This document shows, in pieces, positions 4,262 to 46,080 of a stretch of DNA of 46,080 nt; the first letter of the stretch is position 1; every line of letters starts with the position of its first letter. The DNA comes from Solobacterium sp. (GTDB lineage: Bacteria > Bacillota_I > Bacilli_A > Erysipelotrichales > Erysipelotrichaceae), in assembly GCA_022486935.1 (NCBI GenBank), contig JAKVJO010000005.1:1-46080 (forward strand), written 5' to 3'. The position numbers were made by a program, and so were the translations under genes. Under the pieces are notes generated by a model. That model was not told the origin of the DNA and did not search any database. It saw only the letters and a program-made list of their open reading frames with translations.

Positions 4262-4555
4262 ATGCGGATTGTCTGGATTCTGCTCATTGGGCTGAGATAT
4301 CCGCATGTGTTTTACGGCTCCGGTATTCTTTTTCACCGATGTACTTTTCTATGGCAAATAAAATCAGATATCGATCTGAAAACTTCTTTCATTACAGTAA
4401 GCGATTTCAATTCATGACTTTCAAAAAAGCCGGATAAAATCGGCGTTTTCTGCCACTTATTCATTGCTTCACAAGATCATTCATGATAGATTGAATCAGC
4501 GATAACACCTGGTATGTATTGAAGCCATGTGAAGATCGAAAGATGGAGGGAAAGA

Positions 4556-6457
4556 ATGAAAAAAGTTTTCGCTTTTACTGCGGCCGCAGCAATGGCACTG
4601 TCATTGGTTGGCTGCAGCAGTTCCAGCAGCACATCCAGCACAGGTGTCTCCGGTACCTTTACCGGAACAGCCCAGGGCAATGGCGGTGACGTCACTGTTA
4701 CCATTACCCTGAAAGACAGCAAGATTACCGATGTCAAGGCAGAGGGAAAAGATGAGACTGCCGGTATCGGAACCAAACCGCTCGAGCAGATGCCTGCAGA
4801 AATGGTTGACGGCAACACGATCAATGTTGATACAGTCGCTTCTGCAACCATCACTTCCAAGGCAATCCTCGAAGCAGCCAAGGCAGCAATTGAAGCAGCA
4901 GGTCTGAATCCGGATGACTATGCAGGAACCAGCACTTCTGCATCAGCAGCCGAAGATCTGACTGAAGACTGCGACGTTGTCGTTGTCGGTGCCGGCGGAG
5001 CCGGTATGACAGCAGCAATCACAGCAGCAGACGCAGGCAGAAAAGTCATCATCGTTGAGAGCCAGTCCGTATCCGGAGGCAACTCCGTACGCGCTACCGG
5101 CGGTATGAATGCAGCAAAGACTTCCTATCAGGATGAGAACACCTTTGATGAATCAGCCGGTGTTGAAAAGACCCTGGCATCTGCTGCAGATAAGTATGCA
5201 GACAATGAAACCATCACCGCACTCGCTGCAACGGTTCAGAAGCAGTGGGATGAGTATCAGGCAGCCCCGACCGGCTACTTTGATTCCGTAGAACTGTTTG
5301 AACTTGACACCATGATCGGCGGCAAGGGCATCAACAATCCGGAACTGGTCAAGACACTCTGCGAGAATTCTTCCGCAGGCATTGACTGGCTGGCTTCCAT
5401 CGGCGCAGATCTGACCAGCGTCGGTGCATTCGGCGGCGCATCCGTCAAGCGTATTCACCGTCCGGTAGACGCAGACGGCAAGACCATCGCAGTCGGCTCC
5501 TACATTGTTCCGATTCTTGAATCAACCTGCGAAGACCGCGGGATCGAAATCATCTACAGCACCACTGCTGACAAGATCCTGACTGATTCCGAGGGCAACG
5601 CTGTTGGAATCGAAGGCAAGGGCGATGCCGGCAATACGGTTACCATCAATGCCAAGTCAGTCGTTCTTGCGACAGGCGGCTTCGGTGCCAACCTCGACAT
5701 GGTTGTTGAATACAAGCCGGAACTTGAAGGATTTGTAACAACCAACGCAGCAGGCGCTCAGGGCCAGGGTATCACTATGGCAACTGAAGTCGGTGCCGGC
5801 ACAGTTGATATGGACCAGATCCAGATTCACCCGACCGTTCACGTTGATGATAACGGTGCAGCGAACCTGATCACTGAAGGACTCCGCGGCGACGGTGCAA
5901 TCCTTGTCAACAAGGAAGGCAAACGCTTCATTGATGAAGTTGGAACCAGAGATGTTGTCTCCGCAGCTGAAAACAGCCAGACAGACGGCATGGCATGGCT
6001 GATCGTTGACCAGAAGATGGTTGACGCATCTGCAGTCATCCAGGGCTACATCAAGAAGGGCTTCACTGTTACAGGCAACACGGTTGAAGAACTCGCAGCC
6101 GCAATGGATGTTGATTCTGCAGCGCTTGTTGAAACAATGTCTACCTGGAACGCAGATGTCGCAGCTGAATCTGATCCTGAATTCAACCGCACATCATTCG
6201 CAGATCCGCTGGATACTGCTCCGTACTATGCAATTACCGTTCAGCCGGGCATCCACCACACCATGGGCGGTGTCACGATTGATACTTCTGCAGAAGTACT
6301 CAAGGAAGACAGCAGCGTCATCAACGGTCTCTTCGCGGCAGGCGAAGTTACCGGCGGCGTACACGGTGCCAACCGTCTCGGCGGCAATGCAGTCGCAGAC
6401 TTCATTGTCTACGGACGGATTGCCGGCCAGAGCGCAGCTGATTACGCAGCAAAATAA
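4556..6457 (+). CDS. flavocytochrome c/fumarate reductase-like lipoprotein (N-terminal FMN_bind domain plus FAD-binding reductase domain)
   Basis: Lipoprotein signal MKKVFAFTAAAAMALSLVGCSSSSS; FMN-bind motif VDTVASATITS; FAD motif DVVVVGAGGAGMTAAITAADAGRKVIIVE; active-site regions GLRGDGAILVNKEGKRFIDE, HHTMGGVTID, GEVTGGVHGANRLGGNA. Confidence 0.93.
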   Translation: MKKVFAFTAAAAMALSLVGCSSSSSTSSTGVSGTFTGTAQGNGGDVTVTITLKDSKITDVKAEGKDETAGIGTKPLEQMPAEMVDGNTINVDTVASATITSKAILEAAKAAIEAAGLNPDDYAGTSTSASAAEDLTEDCDVVVVGAGGAGMTAAITAADAGRKVIIVESQSVSGGNSVRATGGMNAAKTSYQDENTFDESAGVEKTLASAADKYADNETITALAATVQKQWDEYQAAPTGYFDSVELFELDTMIGGKGINNPELVKTLCENSSAGIDWLASIGADLTSVGAFGGASVKRIHRPVDADGKTIAVGSYIVPILESTCEDRGIEIIYSTTADKILTDSEGNAVGIEGKGDAGNTVTINAKSVVLATGGFGANLDMVVEYKPELEGFVTTNAAGAQGQGITMATEVGAGTVDMDQIQIHPTVHVDDNGAANLITEGLRGDGAILVNKEGKRFIDEVGTRDVVSAAENSQTDGMAWLIVDQKMVDASAVIQGYIKKGFTVTGNTVEELAAAMDVDSAALVETMSTWNADVAAESDPEFNRTSFADPLDTAPYYAITVQPGIHHTMGGVTIDTSAEVLKEDSSVINGLFAAGEVTGGVHGANRLGGNAVADFIVYGRIAGQSAADYAAK

Positions 6458-10884: not shown

Positions 10885-13041
10885 ATGAAACAGGGAGGCA
10901 GACTGACCATACCGACAGAACTTGGTATGGTGGATGATACATTGAATCTGATTCATGAACTGGATGCGGATGCGATCCGTGACTGTGATGGAACAGAGAT
11001 GCCGCAGCAGCTGAAGCATTGCGGCGCAAAGATTTATGCAACATATTACACAACCCGGAAAGACAATGCCTGGGCCGAGGCGAATCCTGATGAGGTTCAA
11101 CAGGAGTATCTGTCGAGTGACCGCTGCACGGCTGATGGGGAAAGTCTCACCATTGAACTGCTGCGGGGATTCAATCCTCAGGAACTGAAAGTAAATGATC
11201 TGGATGATCCGAAAACCTGGTGGGAGGTCATGGACCGCACGGTTGGCAAACCGCTGGATCCATCCTGCTGGAACTACTGTGCTGAAGATGGAACTGTGAC
11301 ATTAGAGAGTATTCCATATCATGTCTATACTGTCAGCTTCCTGGCGTTTCTGATCTGGGATCCGGTACACATGTACAATTTCATTACAAATGACTGGAAG
11401 GATGATCCGCATCAATGCACGTTGGATGTGAGACAGCCAAAAACTCAGGCTCACGTAATCGAAAAACTGGAGCGCTTCTGCCAGGAACATCCGGAGGTGG
11501 ATGTGATCCGTTTTACGACGTTCTTCCATCAGTTTACGCTGACCTTTGATGATCAGAAACGGGAGAAGTATGTCGAGTGGTTTGGCTACAGTGCAAGCGT
11601 CAGCCCGTATATACTGAAGCAGTTTGAACAGTGGGCCGGCTATCCTTTCCGACCGGAGTACATTGTGGATCAGGGCTATTTCAATTCGTTATTCCGTCAG
11701 CCTTCAAAGCAGTTCAGGGACTTCATTGAATTTCAGCAGATTGAAGTCTGTAAACTTGCTAAGAAACTGGTTGATATTGTCCATGGTTATGGCAAGGAAG
11801 CCATGATGTTTCTGGGTGACCATTGGATTGGCACCGAGCCTTACGGAAAATATTTTGAAGGGATTGGGCTTGATGCAGTGGTCGGCAGTGTTGGCAGCGG
11901 TGTGACCATGCGCATGATTTCTGATATCAAGGGCGTGAAATATACTGAGGGCAGGCTGCTTCCGTATTTCTTCCCCGATGTCTTCTGCGAGGGCGGCGAT
12001 CCAATCGGTGAAGCCAGACAGAACTGGCTGCAGGCAAGACGTGCAATTCTCCGCAGCCCGCTTGACCGTATCGGTTATGGAGGCTATCTGCACCTGGCAG
12101 AAGAGTGGCCCGGGTTTATCAGTACAATCCAGCAGGTAGTGGGTGAATTCCGGGAGATACACGAAAAAACCGGTGATACAAAGTCGAATACGGCACCGTT
12201 CAAAGTGGCAATTCTGAACAGCTGGGGCCATATCCGTTCCTGGATGAATAATCAGGTTCACCACTCAATCTATCATCGGGAAATCTACAGCTACGTCGGT
12301 GTCATTGAGTGTTTGTCCGGTATGCCATTTGATGTTGAGTTCATCGATTTCCAGGATGTCAGAGATGGTTTGGATCCGGATATCAGGGTGATTATCAATG
12401 CCGGTGATCGCGACACTTCCTGGAGCGGCGGCGACAGCTGGCTGGATCCCGAAATCACCTCAGCAATTCGAAAATTTGTCCATGACGGCGGCGGCTTTAT
12501 CGGTGTTGGAGAACCGACCGCGGTTCAGCATCAAGGAGCCTTCTTCCAACTGCGTGATGTATTGGGAGTAGATGAGGAAGTGGGGTATTCCCTGAGTACG
12601 GACAAGTACAATGTATGCAGACCGGAGCACTTCCTCATGGAAGACCTGAATGGAAAGCCAAACTTCGGAGAGGGTATGAAGGGTATCTATGCCTATGGTG
12701 ATCATTACCAGATCCTGGCTCAGGACGGGGAGTATACCCAGATGGCAGTCAATGAATACGGTCATGGCAGAGGAGTATATCTTGCAGGATTGCCATACAG
12801 TCCTGAAAACTGCCGACTGCTGCTGCGGAGTATCTATTATGCGGCACATCGGGAAGCGGACATGAAAGAATACTACGTAACCAATTGCAATACCGAGATT
12901 GCGGCCTATGAATCTGCCGGTGTTGCAGCGGTGATCAACAATACTTCTGAAACGGAGAAAACAGATGTCGTGCTCCATGGATCATTCCGCGAAACTCTGG
13001 AATTGAAGCCAGGGGAGATGCGCTGGATTTCAATTCGCTGA
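10885..13041 (+). CDS. gnpA: 1,3-beta-galactosyl-N-acetylhexosamine phosphorylase (GH112)
   Basis: GH112 signature GRLTIPTELGMVDDTLNLIHELDADAIRDCDGTEMP, TTRKDNAWAEANPDEVQQEYLSSDR, GEARQNWLQARRAILRSPLDRIGYGGYL. Confidence 0.95.
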   Translation: MKQGGRLTIPTELGMVDDTLNLIHELDADAIRDCDGTEMPQQLKHCGAKIYATYYTTRKDNAWAEANPDEVQQEYLSSDRCTADGESLTIELLRGFNPQELKVNDLDDPKTWWEVMDRTVGKPLDPSCWNYCAEDGTVTLESIPYHVYTVSFLAFLIWDPVHMYNFITNDWKDDPHQCTLDVRQPKTQAHVIEKLERFCQEHPEVDVIRFTTFFHQFTLTFDDQKREKYVEWFGYSASVSPYILKQFEQWAGYPFRPEYIVDQGYFNSLFRQPSKQFRDFIEFQQIEVCKLAKKLVDIVHGYGKEAMMFLGDHWIGTEPYGKYFEGIGLDAVVGSVGSGVTMRMISDIKGVKYTEGRLLPYFFPDVFCEGGDPIGEARQNWLQARRAILRSPLDRIGYGGYLHLAEEWPGFISTIQQVVGEFREIHEKTGDTKSNTAPFKVAILNSWGHIRSWMNNQVHHSIYHREIYSYVGVIECLSGMPFDVEFIDFQDVRDGLDPDIRVIINAGDRDTSWSGGDSWLDPEITSAIRKFVHDGGGFIGVGEPTAVQHQGAFFQLRDVLGVDEEVGYSLSTDKYNVCRPEHFLMEDLNGKPNFGEGMKGIYAYGDHYQILAQDGEYTQMAVNEYGHGRGVYLAGLPYSPENCRLLLRSIYYAAHREADMKEYYVTNCNTEIAAYESAGVAAVINNTSETEKTDVVLHGSFRETLELKPGEMRWISIR

Positions 13042-36395: not shown

Positions 36396-37469
36396 TTAGT
36401 TGAGCGCAGCTGCGTTTGCAATTGCGGTAACAACAGCACCCTGGAGATCAGTGATGTTGATGGTGGTAGTTGTCTTCAGATCTGCATCGTCTGTGACTGT
36501 GCTGCCTTCATCATTGGTTGTGGTAGCCATTCCGGAGATGTCTGCGGAAGTCTTGCCAACAGTCCAAGCTTCGAAGCCTTCGTTCTGTTCGAACCATTCA
36601 CCGACCTGGGAAACCTTGGACATGCCATAATCAGCACCCTTGGCCATCTTGGTCTTAGCTTCAGTAGCATCGCCATCAAGAACGCCTGCGGATGTGAACT
36701 TAGCGGAATCCTGAGCAACGTCATCCTGTGTGAAGAGAACCTTGCCGTCAGCGTCGAGTGCTACAACTGCATAAGTAACATTGGACTGAACGGAACCATC
36801 ATCTTCGCCGTCAGCGTCAGAGAGTTTCATGGAAGTCTTGGAACCTGTACCAACCTGAGCGATTGTTCCATCAACTTCGGTTGCGTTTTCAACAGCTGCC
36901 TTGAATGCAGTGATGAATGCGTCAACGCCCATGGTGCAGCCGGTCTTCAGATCAGCGTCATCAGGAACATTGGAGCCTTCGTCATTGGTTGTAACAGCCA
37001 TGTTTTCGAAATCAGAAACAGTCTTGCCAACAGCCCACTTTTCGAGCGCGTCAATCTGTTCATACCATTCTTTGCCAATGGAAGAAGCCTTGGCCATACC
37101 ATAATCTGCTCCCTTTTCCTTCTTGGTCGGGGTAGCTGCAGACGCATCAGAAGTGATTGCGCCGGTGGAACTGAAGGTGCCCTTGTTCTGAGCAACATCG
37201 AAGTAGACATACTTGATGGTGTCGCCGTCCAGAACGACACTTGCATAAGTGGTCGCTACCTGGATGGAGCCGTCATCTTCTCCGTCCGCATCAACTGTTG
37301 AGAATGATGTGGTGGAACCGATACCGACTTTCAGAGAACCTGTGGATGCTGCAGCTGTTGTAGCTGCGGTGGATGCTGCTGCTGTGCTTGCGGTTGTGGA
37401 TGTAGCTGTGCTGGAGCTGCAGCCCGCGAGCATTGCAACTGCACAAAGTGCTGCAATGTACTTTTTCAT
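36396..37469 (-). CDS. lipoprotein with two tandem FMN_bind-like repeats lacking canonical flavinylation motif
   Basis: Lipobox AMLAGCSSS. Two repeats of about 150 aa share SxxxDADGEDDGS(I/V)Q, KGADYGM(A/S)K, (E)WxEQ, (A)W(A/T)VGKT, DDADLKT(G/T). The position of the usual [ST]GAT-x-T motif reads TGCTMG and TTTTIN. Confidence 0.8.
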   Translation of the reverse strand: MKKYIAALCAVAMLAGCSSSTATSTTASTAAASTAATTAAASTGSLKVGIGSTTSFSTVDADGEDDGSIQVATTYASVVLDGDTIKYVYFDVAQNKGTFSSTGAITSDASAATPTKKEKGADYGMAKASSIGKEWYEQIDALEKWAVGKTVSDFENMAVTTNDEGSNVPDDADLKTGCTMGVDAFITAFKAAVENATEVDGTIAQVGTGSKTSMKLSDADGEDDGSVQSNVTYAVVALDADGKVLFTQDDVAQDSAKFTSAGVLDGDATEAKTKMAKGADYGMSKVSQVGEWFEQNEGFEAWTVGKTSADISGMATTTNDEGSTVTDDADLKTTTTINITDLQGAVVTAIANAAALN

Positions 37470-38598: not shown

Positions 38599-39747
38599 TC
38601 ATCCCCAGGTGATATGGTCATTCAGACCATCCGTCCAGGCAATGTACAGATCTCCGACTACCTTGGAATTCGGGCAGTCCTTCAGAACATCGGAATCTTT
38701 ATCTGCCATCCAGATGACATCAACATCTGTATCCGGGTTGGCAGCCTTGTACGCTTCGATGGTTGCCAGACCCTCTTCGTAGGACATGGTGAATAACGTG
38801 GTGCTGAGACAGTCAGCGGTGCCGGAATCTTTGGTCACAATGGTGACTGAGTGGTAGTAAGATGCCGGATAGTTGGTGGAAGGATCAATAATGTGGTGAT
38901 AGCGGTTGCCGTCAGTTGCCGTGTAGTAGCGCTCATAGTCGCCGCTGGTCACGAAGGATTCTTCACCTGATTCAGAGACAACCATCAGATTGTCAGATCC
39001 GGTCGGGTTCTGGATCCGTACATTCCAGGTCGTGCCGTCCGCCTTGTCGCCCAGGGTGCGGTTGTTTCCGCCGGCATTGATTGCCGCGTGGACAACGCCT
39101 TCACTCTGCAGCTGATCGGCGATCTTCTCGGTCGCATAGCCCTTGGCAATGCCGCCGACATCCAGCGATACATTCGGATCAGTGATGTAGACGGTGCTGG
39201 CTTCCTCATCAATCTGGATGTAATCCCATCCTTTATAGGAGGCTGCTTCACTCAGTTCTTCGTCACTCGGCAGGTCGCCCTGTTCCCCGTCTTCATTCTT
39301 GGTGATGCCTTCTTCACGGTACTTGTGCCATACCTTGAGCAGACTGCCCATGGTCACATCGAATTCTCCGTTGGAGTATTCATAGAACTGCTTCGCCTTC
39401 TTCAGCATGTCTATGATATCGGAGGATACGGTGACCGGTGCAATGCCGGCATTGTCATTAATCGTCTTCAGATTATTCAGGCCGTCATAGTTGTTGTAGA
39501 TGTCAAACAGGTTGTTGTAATACTTGAAGAGATCGACCGCTTCGTTGAAATGGGTGTCGAACAGATCCTTGCTGTCAGTGGCTTCCTGGTAAACCAGAAC
39601 CGTGTCAAAGCCAGCATCTACCGACACATTCTGATAGGTTTGCAAACCGGAATCAGAAGGGGATGCACTTGCCGAGGCAGTACTTGAAGTACAGCTGCAG
39701 AGCATCGTTAAACTAATGAAAGAAATCACAATTTGTCTTATTTTCAT
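38599..39747 (-). CDS. apbE: FAD:protein FMN transferase (ApbE), lipoprotein
   Basis: LTMLCSCTSS lipobox; FDVTMGSLLKVWHKYREEG, VSLDVGGIAKGYATEKIADQL, AAINAGGNNRTLG, SGDYERYYTATDGNRYHHIIDPSTNYPA. Confidence 0.95.
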   Translation of the reverse strand: MKIRQIVISFISLTMLCSCTSSTASASASPSDSGLQTYQNVSVDAGFDTVLVYQEATDSKDLFDTHFNEAVDLFKYYNNLFDIYNNYDGLNNLKTINDNAGIAPVTVSSDIIDMLKKAKQFYEYSNGEFDVTMGSLLKVWHKYREEGITKNEDGEQGDLPSDEELSEAASYKGWDYIQIDEEASTVYITDPNVSLDVGGIAKGYATEKIADQLQSEGVVHAAINAGGNNRTLGDKADGTTWNVRIQNPTGSDNLMVVSESGEESFVTSGDYERYYTATDGNRYHHIIDPSTNYPASYYHSVTIVTKDSGTADCLSTTLFTMSYEEGLATIEAYKAANPDTDVDVIWMADKDSDVLKDCPNSKVVGDLYIAWTDGLNDHITWG

Positions 39748-39848: not shown

Positions 39849-41132
39849 ATGTCAATTTTAACCGGGCCGATGCATTGGCATCTGGACGGGCACAAGGATC
39901 TCACTGCGCACAGTGAAGTCCGGACGATGCCTGATCCGGATATCATCCGCATCCCACTCTTCAACGGCAATGCTGTCTGCACACCGCTTGTTAAAGTGGG
40001 GGATGAAGTCAAAGCCGGCCAAAAGATTGCTGAACGCAATGACCATTTTTATCTGCCATTGTATTCACCGGTTTCCGGCACTGTCACAGCGATTGAAAAA
40101 CGCCAGACCAGTGTTCTGAAGCCGTATGATCATCTGGTCATTACCAATGATCATAAGAACACGTTTTGCAAGCCATTCGAGACACTCGACTATGAGAAGG
40201 CTACGAATGAAGAACTGCTGGCTTTCGTCAAGGAAGCCGGTCCGCTGGGTCTTGGCGGAGCAGGATTCCCGACTTATGTGAAATACCTCAAGCCGGAGAA
40301 TGTTGATCTGTTCATCATCAACGCAGTGGAATGTGAACCGTACCTGACTTCCGATTATGCCAATGCTCTGGCAAACCCGGAACAGCTCAAGACAGGTGCG
40401 CTTGCACTGTTCAAACTGAGCACGGCCAAGAAGGCCTGTGTTGCAGTCAAGGAAGACAAGAAAGAACTGATCGCTTCTTTGACCAAGACATTTGAAGGAA
40501 CACCGGTTGAAGTTCATACCGTACCGGACATCTATCCGGCCGGCTGGGAACGTGAACTGGTATGGCTGATCACCGGCAAGCGCTATGGCAAACTGCCGAT
40601 GGAAGCCGGCTGTATCCTGAACAACGTATCGACCTGTATTGCCCTCGGTGATGCACTGAGTGAAGGCAGACCGATTATGTACAAGACCGTCACGGTATCC
40701 GGAGACGGCGTCAAGCAGCCTCAGAATGTCATCGTACCGGTAGGTACCATGGCTTCAGATATCATCCAGTTCTGCGGCGGCTATGAAGGCGATGACTGTC
40801 TTCTGATTGCCGGCGGACCGATGATGGGCAAGACCATTCCGAACGACCAGTTCGTAATCGGCTATGCCTGCGGTGCTTTGACGGTACTCAAGCACCGTGA
40901 TCCGTTCTCCGTGAAGTGCCTGCGCTGCGGCAAGTGCACAGAAGTGTGCCCGGCAGGTATGGAACCGGTACGTATCAACAACTGCGAGAAACTCAAGGAT
41001 GTTGAGACGCTGAAGAAACTTGATATCAACTCCTGCATTGAATGCGGCTTATGCACCTACATCTGCCCGTCCATGCTGGATGTTACAGAAGGAATCCGCA
41101 AGGCCAAGAGATATATGGCCCTTGTGAAGTAA
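39849..41132 (+). CDS. rnfC: RNF electron transport complex subunit C
   Basis: AGPLGLGGAGFPTYVKYL, INAVECEPYLTSDY, two 4Fe-4S motifs CLRCGKCTEVCPAGMEP and CIECGLCTYICPS. Confidence 0.96.
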   Translation: MSILTGPMHWHLDGHKDLTAHSEVRTMPDPDIIRIPLFNGNAVCTPLVKVGDEVKAGQKIAERNDHFYLPLYSPVSGTVTAIEKRQTSVLKPYDHLVITNDHKNTFCKPFETLDYEKATNEELLAFVKEAGPLGLGGAGFPTYVKYLKPENVDLFIINAVECEPYLTSDYANALANPEQLKTGALALFKLSTAKKACVAVKEDKKELIASLTKTFEGTPVEVHTVPDIYPAGWERELVWLITGKRYGKLPMEAGCILNNVSTCIALGDALSEGRPIMYKTVTVSGDGVKQPQNVIVPVGTMASDIIQFCGGYEGDDCLLIAGGPMMGKTIPNDQFVIGYACGALTVLKHRDPFSVKCLRCGKCTEVCPAGMEPVRINNCEKLKDVETLKKLDINSCIECGLCTYICPSMLDVTEGIRKAKRYMALVK

Positions 41133-41147
41133 GGGAGGAGAGAAACG

Positions 41148-43055
41148 ATGAAGTTTACATTTAAGCCTTCGCCGAACTATCGCACTTCCAGAAGCACAAG
41201 CAGTATCATGCGGGATCTGACGATGTGCCTGTGTGCGGTGACACTGTTCTCCGTGATCTACTACTGCACTGCATATGGTGCAAGCTACGGACTGCGGGTC
41301 ATCCTGCTCATGGCTGATGGCATTGCGGCAACACTGATTACCGAGGCCATCTGGCTCAAGGCAACCAAGAAGGATATCAAGACCGGCATCCTGTCATCCT
41401 ATTCCTGGATTACAGCAATGATCCTGGTTCTGATTTCTTCCATTGATACCAGCTACTTCGCAATTGCAGTCGCATCTGTGATTGCCATTGTATTCGGCAA
41501 ACTGGTATTCGGCGGTTTCGGTCAGAATATCTTCAACCCGGCTGCCTTCGGAGAAGCAATCATCATGCAGAGCTTCTCGGCAACCAAGTCGGTTGACTTT
41601 GCGACCAGCGCAACCCCGACCAATGTATTGAATTCTTACGGCTGGGTATTGAACAGTGAGCAGTTCTCATCTGTATCCTCGCAGTTCGGGGGACTCGGGA
41701 ACATGTTCCTGGGAATGTATCCAAGCTGTATCGGCAGCACCTGCGGCCTGCTGATCATTGCCTGCGGCATCTTCCTGATTGTCCGCAAGGATATTGACTG
41801 GCAGACACCGGTCTTCTATATCGGTTCCATCTTCGTCATGACTGCCCTGATCGGCGCCATGCACGGTTCCGGCTTCTGGTATCCGGCAATCCAGATTCTC
41901 TCCGGCGGCATCCTGTTCGGTGCAATCTTCATGATTACCGATCCGGTCACCAGTCCGGTTACATTGCCTGGACGTATCGTATTCGCAGTCGGTGCAGCAG
42001 CACTGACCGTCATCATCCGTACCAAGTCCAATCTGGCAGATGGCGTTCTGTATTCCATCCTGCTGATGAATATGCTGACACCGGCCATCGACAAGATGTT
42101 CGACGGCAACCAGATCCGCGACGGCAAGAAGTTCAGAAACAAGACGATTCTCGTTTCTGTCATCCTGCTGGCTGTCACCCTGGGCTTCGGCTCACAGCTG
42201 ACTGCCAAGACACCGGTTTCTGATACTGCTTCAACTGATAACAGCGGAAGCACATCCACAGCAGCAACCACAACCAGTCTCAGTGCAGACTACTCACAGA
42301 ATGAGGCAGAATGCACCGAGGAAAGCAATGACGGTTCTACTGCAGTCTATGCATGTTCTGCAAAGGGCTACGGTCTGATCAACAACGTTGAGGGTGAAGG
42401 CAAGAACAAGGTTACGGTAACCGTGGATCTTGGCACCAACACCGTCAAGTCAGTTGAACTGAAGCGCTTCGGCGATACCGAGGGCGTAGGCTCTACGGCA
42501 ACCACCGACAGTGCACTGGCTGCGTATGAAGGAAAGTCCATCTCTGATGATGTCGATCTGACCACCGGCGCAACCTACACCAGTGATTCCATCGCATCCA
42601 TGGTTCAGGCAGCCCTGAACGGCGGCACACCGCTTGCATCAGGTGAAACCACCGGCACTTCCGGCGGCAGTTCCTCTACTGGTTCTGCCCTGGCACTGAA
42701 CGGCGATTACCCGGACTATGAAGCAACCTGTGAAGAATCATCCAATGACGGAACCACTGCAGTCTATGCATGTTCTGCCAAGGGCTATGGCCTGATCAAC
42801 AACGTGGAAGGCGAAGGCAAGAACAAGGTCACCGTGACGGTTGATCTTGGCACACAGTCCATTACTTCCATTGAACTGAAGCGCTTCGGAGATACCGAGG
42901 GCGTCGGTTCCATGGCAACCACTGACAGTGCACTGGGCGAGTATGCAGGAAAGACTTCTGCAGACAGCGTCGATGCAGTCAGCGGCGCAACCTTTACAAG
43001 CACTTCCATTGCCGCCATGGCAGAAGCCGCACTGAACGCTGCGGCTGGAAACTAA
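41148..43055 (+). CDS. rnfD: RnfD fused to two C-terminal FMN_bind-like repeats
   Basis: RnfD TM core (FGGFGQNIFNPAAFGEAII, DFATSATPTNV) followed by two repeats ending in VDLTTGATYTSDSI and VDAVSGATFTSTSI. Confidence 0.93.
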   Translation: MKFTFKPSPNYRTSRSTSSIMRDLTMCLCAVTLFSVIYYCTAYGASYGLRVILLMADGIAATLITEAIWLKATKKDIKTGILSSYSWITAMILVLISSIDTSYFAIAVASVIAIVFGKLVFGGFGQNIFNPAAFGEAIIMQSFSATKSVDFATSATPTNVLNSYGWVLNSEQFSSVSSQFGGLGNMFLGMYPSCIGSTCGLLIIACGIFLIVRKDIDWQTPVFYIGSIFVMTALIGAMHGSGFWYPAIQILSGGILFGAIFMITDPVTSPVTLPGRIVFAVGAAALTVIIRTKSNLADGVLYSILLMNMLTPAIDKMFDGNQIRDGKKFRNKTILVSVILLAVTLGFGSQLTAKTPVSDTASTDNSGSTSTAATTTSLSADYSQNEAECTEESNDGSTAVYACSAKGYGLINNVEGEGKNKVTVTVDLGTNTVKSVELKRFGDTEGVGSTATTDSALAAYEGKSISDDVDLTTGATYTSDSIASMVQAALNGGTPLASGETTGTSGGSSSTGSALALNGDYPDYEATCEESSNDGTTAVYACSAKGYGLINNVEGEGKNKVTVTVDLGTQSITSIELKRFGDTEGVGSMATTDSALGEYAGKTSADSVDAVSGATFTSTSIAAMAEAALNAAAGN

Positions 43056-43070
43056 GGAGGGAATGAAGAG

Positions 43071-43586
43071 ATGAAAAAAGATTCGATCCTCTATAAAGTT
43101 GTTCTTCTTGGAATTCTCTGTTCGATCTGCGGCGTACTGATGTCTGCAGTCAACTCGGTGACCGCACCGGTCATTGCCGAGGCTGCCATCGCCAAGGAGA
43201 AAGACAACCTCGAGAAGATCTACCCGGGTGCCACCTTTACCGAAGTAACCGGCTATGATGATCCGACAGGTCTTGTCACCGGCGTCTATGACGCTGAGGG
43301 AGAGGGCACTGTATACAAGATTCACGCAGTCGGCTATAACTCCTCCGGATTCGACTTCATGGTCGCATTCAACACGGATGGATCTGTCGGCGGATATGTC
43401 GTCATCTCAGAAAGCGAGACTTCCGGTTTCGGCAAGCGCTGCTTCGAAGATGATTACACCAACCAGATCATGGGCATTACGTCCAAGGACGATGCACCGC
43501 TGCTGTCCGGAGCGACACTGACTTCCACAGCAGTCAAGAACGGTATCAGTGCAGCAGAGGCATTGTTCAATGCCTCGAACAACTAA
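43071..43586 (+). CDS. rnfG: RNF complex subunit G (FMN_bind)
   Basis: Single TM then GFDFMVAFNTDGSVGGYVVISESETSGFGKRC and flavinylation motif LLSGATLTSTAV. Confidence 0.93.
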   Translation: MKKDSILYKVVLLGILCSICGVLMSAVNSVTAPVIAEAAIAKEKDNLEKIYPGATFTEVTGYDDPTGLVTGVYDAEGEGTVYKIHAVGYNSSGFDFMVAFNTDGSVGGYVVISESETSGFGKRCFEDDYTNQIMGITSKDDAPLLSGATLTSTAVKNGISAAEALFNASNN

Positions 43587-43598
43587 GGAGGCACGGGC

Positions 43599-44282
43599 AT
43601 GAGTGAAAACACGAAAGTAAAGAAGAGAGGCTTCTTTGCGGAAATGGTTTACAGCAACCCGGTCTTCGGACTGTACCTGGGCATCTGCTCAGCACTTGCT
43701 GTAACAACTTCCATCAACAACGCACTCGGCATGGGCGTCTGTGTCATTGTCGTCCTGGTGATGAGCAACATCATCATCTCGCTGATTGCCAAGATCACCC
43801 CGGATGATATTCACATTCCGGTCTACATCGTTATCATCGCAACACTGGTTACTGTCGTAAGCATGCTGCTGGAGGCATATACCCCGGAGCTGTTCTCGGC
43901 ACTGGGCGCATTCGTTGACCTGATTGTCGTTAACTGCATCATCCTGGGCAGAGCGGAAGCGTATGCCTGCAACCACAATGTTGCAGAGTCTGCCAAGGAC
44001 GGCATCATGATGGGCCTTGCATACACATTCTCACTGCTTGCAATGTCTTTGATCAGACAGATTCTCGGCACCGGCATCCTGTCTCTGACAAACCCGATGA
44101 CCAACGAAACCATCTTCAGCATCCGTCTGATTCCGGCTGGATTTGAGATTCCGGTATTCACTTCCCAGACTGGCGCATTCCTGACCTTCGCAATTCTTGC
44201 GGCACTGGTTACGGCATATAAGAATCACAACGATGCCAAAGAAGCAGAGGCAGCCAAGACTGCTGTTAAGGGGGCAAAGTAA
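43599..44282 (+). CDS. rnfE: RNF complex subunit E
   Basis: NPVFGLYLGICSALAVTTSINNALGMG, IIVNCIILGRAEAYA-type segment (LIVVNCIILGRAEAYACNHNVAESAKDGIMMGLAYTFSLLAMSLIRQILGTG). Confidence 0.95.
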   Translation: MSENTKVKKRGFFAEMVYSNPVFGLYLGICSALAVTTSINNALGMGVCVIVVLVMSNIIISLIAKITPDDIHIPVYIVIIATLVTVVSMLLEAYTPELFSALGAFVDLIVVNCIILGRAEAYACNHNVAESAKDGIMMGLAYTFSLLAMSLIRQILGTGILSLTNPMTNETIFSIRLIPAGFEIPVFTSQTGAFLTFAILAALVTAYKNHNDAKEAEAAKTAVKGAK

Positions 44283-44285
44283 GTT

Positions 44286-44858
44286 ATGAATCTCTTTACC
44301 TTATTGATCAGCGGCATGCTGATCAACAACATCATCCTGACCAAGTTCATTGGCATGTGCCCGTTCATGGGTGTATCCAACAAGCAGAGTTCTGCAGTTG
44401 GCATGGGTGTTGCTGTTATCTTCGTTATCTTCGGTGCATCTGTATTATCCTGGCTTCTGTACTACTACGTACTGGTACCGCTGGATCTGACATACATGAA
44501 GCTGATCTGCTTTATCCTGCTGATTGCAGCGTTCGTACAGTTTGTTGAAATGTACATGAAGAAGGGTATGCCGGCACTGTATAAGTCACTGGGTATCTAC
44601 CTTCCGCTGATCACCACCAACTGTGCAGTGCTCTATGTTGCACTGGATAACATTACACAGGGCTACACGCTGATTGAGACCATGGTCAATTCCATCGGTG
44701 TACCGGTCGGCTTCATGCTGGTGCTGGTCATCTTCTCCACGATCAGAGAGCGTCTGGTCGCCAATGATGTGCCGTCCGCATTCAAGGGCAACCCGATTGC
44801 GTTTGTCTGCGCAGCCATCATGGCAATTGCATTCTCCGCATTTGCCGGACTGGTCTAA
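44286..44858 (+). CDS. rnfA: RNF complex subunit A
   Basis: ISGMLINNIILTKFIGMCPFMGVSNKQSSAVGMG, YLPLITTNCAVLYVAL, STIRERLVANDVPSAFKGNPIAFVCAAIMAIAFSAFAGL. Confidence 0.95.
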   Translation: MNLFTLLISGMLINNIILTKFIGMCPFMGVSNKQSSAVGMGVAVIFVIFGASVLSWLLYYYVLVPLDLTYMKLICFILLIAAFVQFVEMYMKKGMPALYKSLGIYLPLITTNCAVLYVALDNITQGYTLIETMVNSIGVPVGFMLVLVIFSTIRERLVANDVPSAFKGNPIAFVCAAIMAIAFSAFAGLV

Positions 44859-44864
44859 CTGTTT

Positions 44865-45065
44865 ATGAACAATGTCCTGTATGCAATTCTGATTGCGGCA
44901 GCACTGCTGGGTATCAATATCTGGCTGCTGCAGGCAAACAAGAAAACGCCGGTCCCCAAAGGCTGTGAGAATCTGAAGCCGGACTGCCGCGGCTGCGGGA
45001 TTACCGACTGTGCATTGAAAAGAGAACTGGAAGATCAAGCGAAAGGAGCGAAGACTGAATCATGA
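44865..45065 (+). CDS. 66-aa TM-anchored Cys-motif protein inserted between rnfA and rnfB
   Basis: MNNVLYAILIAAALLGINIWLLQANKKTPVPKGCENLKPDCRGCGITDCALKRELE: one TM plus C-x6-C-x2-C-x4-C; start 6 nt after rnfA stop, overlaps next ORF. Confidence 0.8.
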   Translation: MNNVLYAILIAAALLGINIWLLQANKKTPVPKGCENLKPDCRGCGITDCALKRELEDQAKGAKTES

Positions 45066-45343
45066 TTAAAGCACTCATAATGATGCTGATACTGGGTGGC
45101 GTAGTCGGCCTGGTACTCGGCTTTGCGGCAACGAAGTTCCATGTTGAAGTAGATCACCGCGAACAGGATCTGCTGGGCATGCTGCCTGGTTACAACTGCG
45201 GCGGCTGCGGCTATCCTGGCTGCTCCGGTATGGCTGCTGCATTGGCAGATGGATCAGGCGACATTGATAAATGCAAGCCATCCAAAGCTGAGCAGAAAGA
45301 CAAGATCAAGCAGTATCTGAAGGACAACCCGAAAGCTGCTTAA
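45062..45343 (+). CDS. rnfB: short RnfB: TM plus FeS domain only, no ferredoxin domain
   Basis: MIKALIMMLILGGVVGLVLGFAATKFHVEVDHREQDLLGMLPGYNCGGCGYPGCSGMAAALADGSGDIDKC; TAA followed directly by a terminator. Confidence 0.85.
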   Translation: MIKALIMMLILGGVVGLVLGFAATKFHVEVDHREQDLLGMLPGYNCGGCGYPGCSGMAAALADGSGDIDKCKPSKAEQKDKIKQYLKDNPKAA

Positions 45344-45437: not shown

Positions 45438-46080
45438 GTGAAAAAAATCTTACGTATGCAGGTGCTGAAAATCATCGGCTGCACTGCACTGTTACTGGGC
45501 ATTATTGGACTTGGCTTTGAAATCCGTCTGAAGATGAAACTGAATCTGCAGGTAACCTACATTGCCGCAAGGGATATTCCTCCCCGTACCAGAATTGAAG
45601 AAACAGACCTGATCGAGATCAGGATTCCCAATGACTACCTGCTGGACAATACGTATCACACCAAAGCAGAAATCATCGGCAGGTATACCGAGATCCAGGG
45701 TATGATCCCGGCCGGTTCCGTATTCTACAGGCACATGCTCTACGAAGAAGAGGATCTGCCGGACTATCCAACCCTGCAGCTCAAGGAAGGACAGGCTGCC
45801 TATACCCTGGAAACAGATCTTGCACGACTTGGCGGATCCATCGTTTCCGGCCAGCGTGTCGATATCTATGTGTCCATTGAACAGCGCCAGCAGGCACCCA
45901 TCACCGGATGTCTTCTCTCCGGTGCCCGTGTTATTTCTGTCAAGGACCACAAAGGATTGGACCTGAGTGATGAGCGCAGTACCGGTATTCCCTATCTTGC
46001 CATACTGGCAGTGAACAGATCTGATCTTGAACTGTTGTCCGTTGCCGAACAGATGGGATCAGTCCGCCTGTTTTCTTCCA
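45438..46080 (+). CDS. SAF domain / CpaB-like Flp pilus assembly protein (partial, runs off window)
   Basis: Open frame from GTG after ggcggaggg: MKKILRMQVLKIIGCTALLLGIIGLGFEIRLKMKLNLQVTYIAARDIPPRTRIEETDLIEIRIPNDYLLDNTYHTKAEIIGRYTEIQGMIPAGSVFYRHMLYEE. TM then SAF-like region; absent from the ORF track. Confidence 0.75.
   Translation, partial: MKKILRMQVLKIIGCTALLLGIIGLGFEIRLKMKLNLQVTYIAARDIPPRTRIEETDLIEIRIPNDYLLDNTYHTKAEIIGRYTEIQGMIPAGSVFYRHMLYEEEDLPDYPTLQLKEGQAAYTLETDLARLGGSIVSGQRVDIYVSIEQRQQAPITGCLLSGARVISVKDHKGLDLSDERSTGIPYLAILAVNRSDLELLSVAEQMGSVRLFSS

Follow-up and report, generated by a model that had tools for sequence, protein, structure and literature searches.

We analysed a stretch of 46,080 nucleotides (the window) from a rumen Solobacterium-like bacterium, the genome of which is 62% complete. 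The window carries an Rnf operon in the order apbE (divergent), rnfC, D, G, E, A, B (Table 1). All six subunit genes expected of a functional Rnf are present, RnfC is complete, and RnfA and RnfE contain all four of the [2Fe-2S] cysteines that are invariant across 40 aligned relatives. With two FMN_bind domains on RnfD and one on RnfG, the system also falls among the multi-flavinylated RNFs. RnfB is short, and a Pfam search of the window, including the frames next to rnfB, found no C-terminal ferredoxin or polyferredoxin input domain. The RnfB of T. maritima is likewise reduced to the FdI domain (PMC9588780), and the Rnf of that organism is reported to use ferredoxin (PMC12052999). A short RnfB therefore does not exclude ferredoxin as a donor, and we dropped it as proof against ferredoxin use.

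Immediately 3' of rnfB, a gene for a CpaB/RcpC Flp-pilus assembly protein begins (45438-46079) and runs beyond the end of the window. On the other side of the operon, an arsenic-efflux type permease (NF037962; 37754-38593, minus strand) separates apbE from a two-repeat lipoprotein. This lipoprotein has a lipobox (LPAM_1) but lies below detection by PF04205, and GCT or TTT replaces GAT in its motifs; a PDB sequence search gave no match. A homologue in a relative (L117:7117-7563) matched both the lipoprotein (E 5.9e-10) and PF04205 (E 1.5e-6), which links the lipoprotein to the FMN_bind/PplA group, and we take it to resemble PplA. Elsewhere in the window, a lacto-N-biose/galacto-N-biose phosphorylase gene (10885-13041) adjoins an ABC sugar transporter.

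Table 1. Positions in the window of the Rnf operon, of elements within rnfD and of associated genes
Feature	Position	Strand	Evidence
Lipoprotein reductase at the cell surface (FMN_bind + FAD_binding_2), candidate acceptor of electrons	4529..6457	+	one of six in the genome
PplA-like two-repeat lipoprotein, putative member of the FMN_bind superfamily, motifs DADLKTGCT / DADLKTTTT	36396..37469	-	via homologue L117
apbE, FAD:protein FMN transferase, divergent	38599..39747	-	PF02424, E 8.7e-73
rnfC, FMN/NADH + two [4Fe-4S]	39849..41132	+	PF01512, PF13375, Fer4; TIGR01945 over cut-off
rnfD, 635 aa, core + TM11 + two FMN_bind	41148..43055	+	Pfam, AlphaFold2, Foldseek
RnfD core flavinylation motif DFATSATPT, Thr156	41595..41621	+	A-T-P invariant in 22 relatives
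RnfD TM11 (residues 333-351), which canonical RnfD lacks	42144..42200	+	hydropathy, model helix 326-349, positive-inside flanks
RnfD FMN_bind domain 1, residues 377-491, Thr476	42276..42620	+	Pfam, profile built here, motif
RnfD FMN_bind domain 2, residues 517-631, Thr615	42696..43040	+	Pfam, profile built here, motif
rnfG, one TM + one FMN_bind (SGATLTS)	43071..43586	+	PF04205, E 3.9e-10
rnfE, [2Fe-2S] cysteines retained	43599..44282	+	PF02508; cysteine columns
rnfA, [2Fe-2S] cysteines retained	44286..44858	+	PF02508, TIGR01943 over cut-off; cysteine columns
Short rnfB, 93 aa, TM + FdI (FeS), Cys46/49/54/71	45062..45343	+	PF04060 only

Domains, predicted topology and candidate flavin sites of RnfD

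The first-pass annotation had described the rnfD reading frame as a core with its own flavin motif, a Ser/Thr linker and two repeats, the latter thought to be FMN_bind domains. Translation and Pfam analysis agreed with this description. The core matched PF03116 (NQR2_RnfD_RnfE) over residues 5-319 (E 2.9e-72, 244 bits against a cut-off of 27.7), and TIGR01946 scored 194, under its cut-off of 207. Two stretches of the tail matched PF04205 (E 2.9e-15, 57.1 bits against a cut-off of 22), and both folded well in an AlphaFold2 model of RnfD (m92bd0123cd27, 22 relatives, mean pLDDT 76), where they form two well-formed alpha/beta domains. Foldseek aligned the core with RnfD of A. woodii (9eri_D, TM-score on the target 0.77) and of C. 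tetanomorphum (7zc6_D, 0.81), and gave only weak matches to NqrC. No PF00175 NAD-binding domain, the hallmark of the NQR/RNF-like one-way system, was found in RnfD by Pfam.

In solved structures, RnfD has ten helices and both of its terminal arms, N and C, are cytoplasmic (PMC9588780, PMC11889175). The protein encoded in the window departs from this arrangement by the additional helix at residues 333-351 and an outer tail of 284 residues, and is an extended variant rather than a plain RnfD. The first-pass annotation had mentioned neither this helix nor the short RnfB and the PplA-like lipoprotein. The additional helix is preceded by the basic stretch DGKKFRNK and followed by TAKTPVSDTASTD, the Ser/Thr-rich linker after the helix having nearly no basic residues. 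Because the canonical C-terminus is cytoplasmic and a single helix with positive-inside flanks has been added, the tail is placed outside, and both of its FMN_bind domains should be extracytosolic. The proposal of an electron path outside the membrane had been made to depend on two points, that the repeats model as FMN_bind domains and that the tail is not cytoplasmic; the HMM searches and the model bear out the former, and the flanks of TM11 speak for the latter.

The motifs DFATSATPT, DLTTGATYT and DAVSGATFT start at residues 150, 470 and 609 of RnfD. The triad A155-T156-P157 is invariant in the 22 aligned relatives. In A. woodii, FMN is bound to the RnfD residue that is T156 in its own numbering (PMC11889175), and the FMN at this site of canonical RnfD lies near RnfG. 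In the tail, DLTTGAT and DAVSGAT fit the pattern D-x-x-[ST]-G-A-T. We consider T156, T476 and T615 to be the candidate FMN-threonines of RnfD; together with one site on RnfG, they leave the earlier count of four covalent flavins for the operon standing as a prediction. The two repeats lie 139 residues apart and are 74% identical as protein, while their DNA is 84% identical over the central 165 nucleotides, with 21 of the 27 differences at third codon positions. This bias argues for a tandem duplication under purifying selection rather than chance resemblance.

Distribution and natural variants of the tailed RnfD

The survey covered the phylum of the window together with small samples of plasmids, and we dissected 60 fetched operons besides the loci collected earlier; the counts below refer to non-duplicate loci, of which a few may represent one genome present in two collections. 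RnfD matches were found in 54 of 60 genomes of relatives, and the named records bearing it were mostly Solobacterium and Erysipelotrichaceae MAGs, with Anaerorhabdus furcosa also represented; this culturable relative shows the same layout, with one predicted FMN on its tail (locus L049). The fusion of RnfD with FMN_bind, whose spread the first-pass annotation had left for later study, proved to be widespread in related bacteria and present in many independent assemblies. Hydropathy identified TM11 in 63 of the 65 loci with a short RnfB, the two exceptions having scores of 1.55 and 1.21 where the limit was 1.6, and in none of seven loci with a long RnfB, two RnfD-G fusions being set aside. Across the TM11-RnfD clade, and in most of the dissected loci, RnfB consists of a TM helix and FdI (63-131 aa). 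In a tree of RnfD cores, which was unrooted and built by a quick method, a single branch (SH-aLRT 99) set all 72 rows of the short type or lacking RnfB apart from the others. By these sequence comparisons, the extra helix of RnfD is the mark of a single clade within the window's class, accompanied by a short RnfB, and this clade occurs in the Erysipelotrichaceae and in related families of that class. Among the dissected loci, the number of FMN_bind domains varied from 0 to 3 per tail and from 1 to 5 per RnfG, and the attachment motif, searched with a loose pattern, was retained in 66 of 70 tail domains.

In some relatives, the RnfD tail would supply the FMN in operons in which rnfG was not found. 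Two such loci assigned to f11 (L119 and L120) contain C, D, E and A, with B in L119 only, and genome G116 has a single FMN_bind match genome-wide. At two further loci (L150, 3361-4935; L151, 3822-5396), the operon has a single FMN_bind domain, which is fused to RnfD, and RnfB is full length; these RnfD proteins are only about 30% identical to that of the window, though assigned to the same genus. Both arrangements indicate that the RnfD tail can stand in for RnfG.

In other relatives, it is the ferredoxin arm that has changed. Two f7 genomes that are 99-100% complete (G073 and G119) retain RnfC, the flavin-tailed RnfD, FMN proteins and ApbE, and gave no match to PF02508 or PF04060. At the rnfE and rnfA positions they encode membrane proteins that weakly resemble RnfE/RnfA in their C-terminal segments (hhalign E-values of 7e-4 and 3e-4, with probabilities of only 26-38%) and lack all four [2Fe-2S] ligand cysteines. 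We therefore regard RnfA/E of these genomes as degenerate rather than absent. G260, assigned to f11, also has rnfC and a flavin-tailed rnfD without PF02508 or PF04060 matches. Taken together, the f7 and G260 sequences suggest that the RnfC-RnfD half with its tail is able to work alone, without the ferredoxin arm. Degenerate RnfE/RnfA-like genes devoid of ligand cysteines lie at L118 (6115-7244) and L117 (2662-3713), alongside intact rnfC and flavin-tailed rnfD, and no RnfB match was found in the genome for these loci.

Possible electron routes and their alternatives

The reading that we favour, and hold to be somewhat more probable than not, is that this complete Rnf has a side-branch of flavins through which electrons are exported. 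An RnfG-like module, consisting of one TM helix and an FMN_bind domain that is duplicated here, would have been added to RnfD at the outer face of the membrane. The product of the adjacent apbE gene would flavinylate T156, T476 and T615 of RnfD as well as the RnfG site. Electrons from NADH would pass from RnfC to the riboflavin and FMN of RnfD and on to the outer flavins, while those from ferredoxin would pass through the FdI domain of RnfB, the [2Fe-2S] cluster of RnfA/E and RnfG, so that both inputs would meet at the outer flavins. From there, the two tail flavins may act as a tethered branch leading to surface flavoproteins, namely the FAD/FMN lipoprotein reductases and perhaps the PplA-like lipoprotein. 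The domain architecture, the sequence-predicted topology, the conservation of the motifs, the clade and the gene context come directly from the analysis, whereas we infer the loading of the flavins, the direction of the branch, its acceptors and export itself. Since RnfD reportedly does not pump Na+ (PMC11889175), export through RnfC and RnfD alone would conserve no energy; export from ferredoxin via RnfA/E could do so. The Rnf genes of the window are intact, so ordinary ferredoxin:NAD+ activity is likely as well.

The path from the tail to surface reductases, as envisaged in the first-pass annotation, is plausible in that the genome, 62% complete, encodes six lipoprotein FAD_binding_2 and FMN_bind reductases besides the Rnf proteins; the suggestion is weakened by relatives that have the tail without such reductases. 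In a sample of 392 genomes of the phylum, FMN_bind was found in 121 and PF03116 in 149, and comparison of the two tables showed PF03116 in every listed genome with at least five FMN_bind matches. Three genomes with a long or flavin-tailed RnfD (G184, G205 and G421) had no more FMN_bind matches than the Rnf operon would account for, and FMN_bind reductases are therefore not obligate partners of the tail. With respect to other feeders, 12 related genomes of good quality yielded UbiA quinone prenyltransferase in three, NapH-type Fer4_5 in one, MsrQ-type Ferric_reduct in none and EetB-like PF07456 in 11. EetA/EetB-like genes in most relatives mean that there are candidate routes other than Rnf, and the idea of Rnf as the sole possible route to the reductases was rejected, EetB-like genes being present in 11 of 13 genomes and not found in the window's own. 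One complete relative without UbiA carries an EetA/EetB-like pair (NusG_II and PF07456; L161, 2647-3605).

It is also conceivable, though we judge it unlikely, that the tail flavins export nothing and serve only the ferredoxin:NAD+ cycle, as additional RnfG-like shuttles or as an electron buffer between RnfA/E and RnfD. The replacement of RnfG by the tail in the f11 operons and in the L150/L151 fusions with full RnfB would fit such a role, as would the intact Rnf core genes of the window and the tailed genomes that lack any FMN_bind protein outside the operon. However, RnfG is also present in the window, where an extra shuttle is not needed, the number of extra domains ranges from 0 to 3 among close relatives, unlike a fixed catalytic part, and f7 has kept the tail despite the loss of its ferredoxin arm. 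The same f7 systems, which have RnfC, RnfD-FMN, FMN proteins and ApbE but neither RnfB nor cluster cysteines, could instead mean that the complex is now mainly a one-way, NADH-driven exporter working through RnfC and RnfD, with RnfA, E, B and G secondary, and a short RnfB throughout the clade points the same way. For the window we find this distinctly improbable, given that its four [2Fe-2S] and four FdI cysteines are all intact and that T. maritima combines an FdI-only RnfB with a ferredoxin-using Rnf, as cited above.

It is very improbable that the tail arose by neutral expansion of a repeat or through an error of assembly. Its length and copy number vary widely and the two repeats are near copies of one another, but it occurs in many independent assemblies, its motif is conserved in nearly all tail domains, and the differences between the repeats are concentrated at third codon positions. 

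In a further reading, possible if doubtful, the RnfC/RnfD half with its flavin tail may be a free-standing NADH-driven export machine that arose within Rnf when an RnfG-like module was placed on RnfD, and that outlived the ferredoxin arm in f7, leaving RnfA/E without [2Fe-2S]; the window would then represent a stage with both functions.

Relation to known systems

Canonical Rnf, as represented by C. tetanomorphum (7ZC6), A. woodii (9ERI) and A. vinelandii (8AHX), shares with the window the subunits C, D, G, E, A and B, the fold of the RnfD core, the T156-FMN site, the RnfA/E cluster cysteines and the domains of RnfC. Canonical RnfD ends in the cytoplasm after ten TM helices, whereas that of the window continues into TM11 and two FMN_bind domains, and, unlike in the canonical complexes, RnfB comprises the FdI domain only. 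Multi-flavinylated RnfG is already known, and a second electron path to outside acceptors was proposed for it by Meheust et al. (2021, eLife; PMC8238504). Additional FMN_bind domains in an Rnf operon are common to that system and the window; there the extra flavins are described on RnfG, whereas here the additional domains follow a new TM helix of RnfD and RnfG is ordinary. In the open-access main texts on flavinylation and Rnf that were searched, we found no description of FMN_bind on RnfD.

The NQR/RNF-like systems, in which RnfD/NqrB is fused to the NAD domain of NqrF, share the idea of RnfD-derived one-way export and an FMN_bind partner (PMC8238504, PMC11334425). They have lost the flavin site of the core and end in an NAD(P)H domain on the cytosolic side; in the window, by contrast, the added domain is predicted to be extracytosolic, the core threonine is retained and NADH would be supplied by RnfC. 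With the extracellular electron transfer system of Listeria (Ndh2, EetAB, PplA, FmnB), the window has in common an ApbE-type transferase, a putatively PplA-like lipoprotein and surface flavoproteins, but no EetB match was found in its genome (62% complete), and UbiA is infrequent among the good-quality relatives.

Many Erysipelotrichaceae of the gut and rumen have numerous surface flavin reductases and no clear quinone or NapH-type feeder, and the flavin-tailed Rnf offers a testable membrane route to these enzymes. Rnf would change from an internal redox loop to a possible three-way junction of NADH, ferredoxin and extracellular acceptors. The variants described here, with 0-3 domains on the RnfD tail, 1-5 on RnfG, a tail in place of RnfG and a degenerate ferredoxin arm, form a natural series that is ready for use in studies of the Rnf mechanism. 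A separate fusion, of RnfE with FMN_bind (PF02508 and PF04205), was observed at L100 (6517-7614), in a genome with at least 14 FMN_bind matches.
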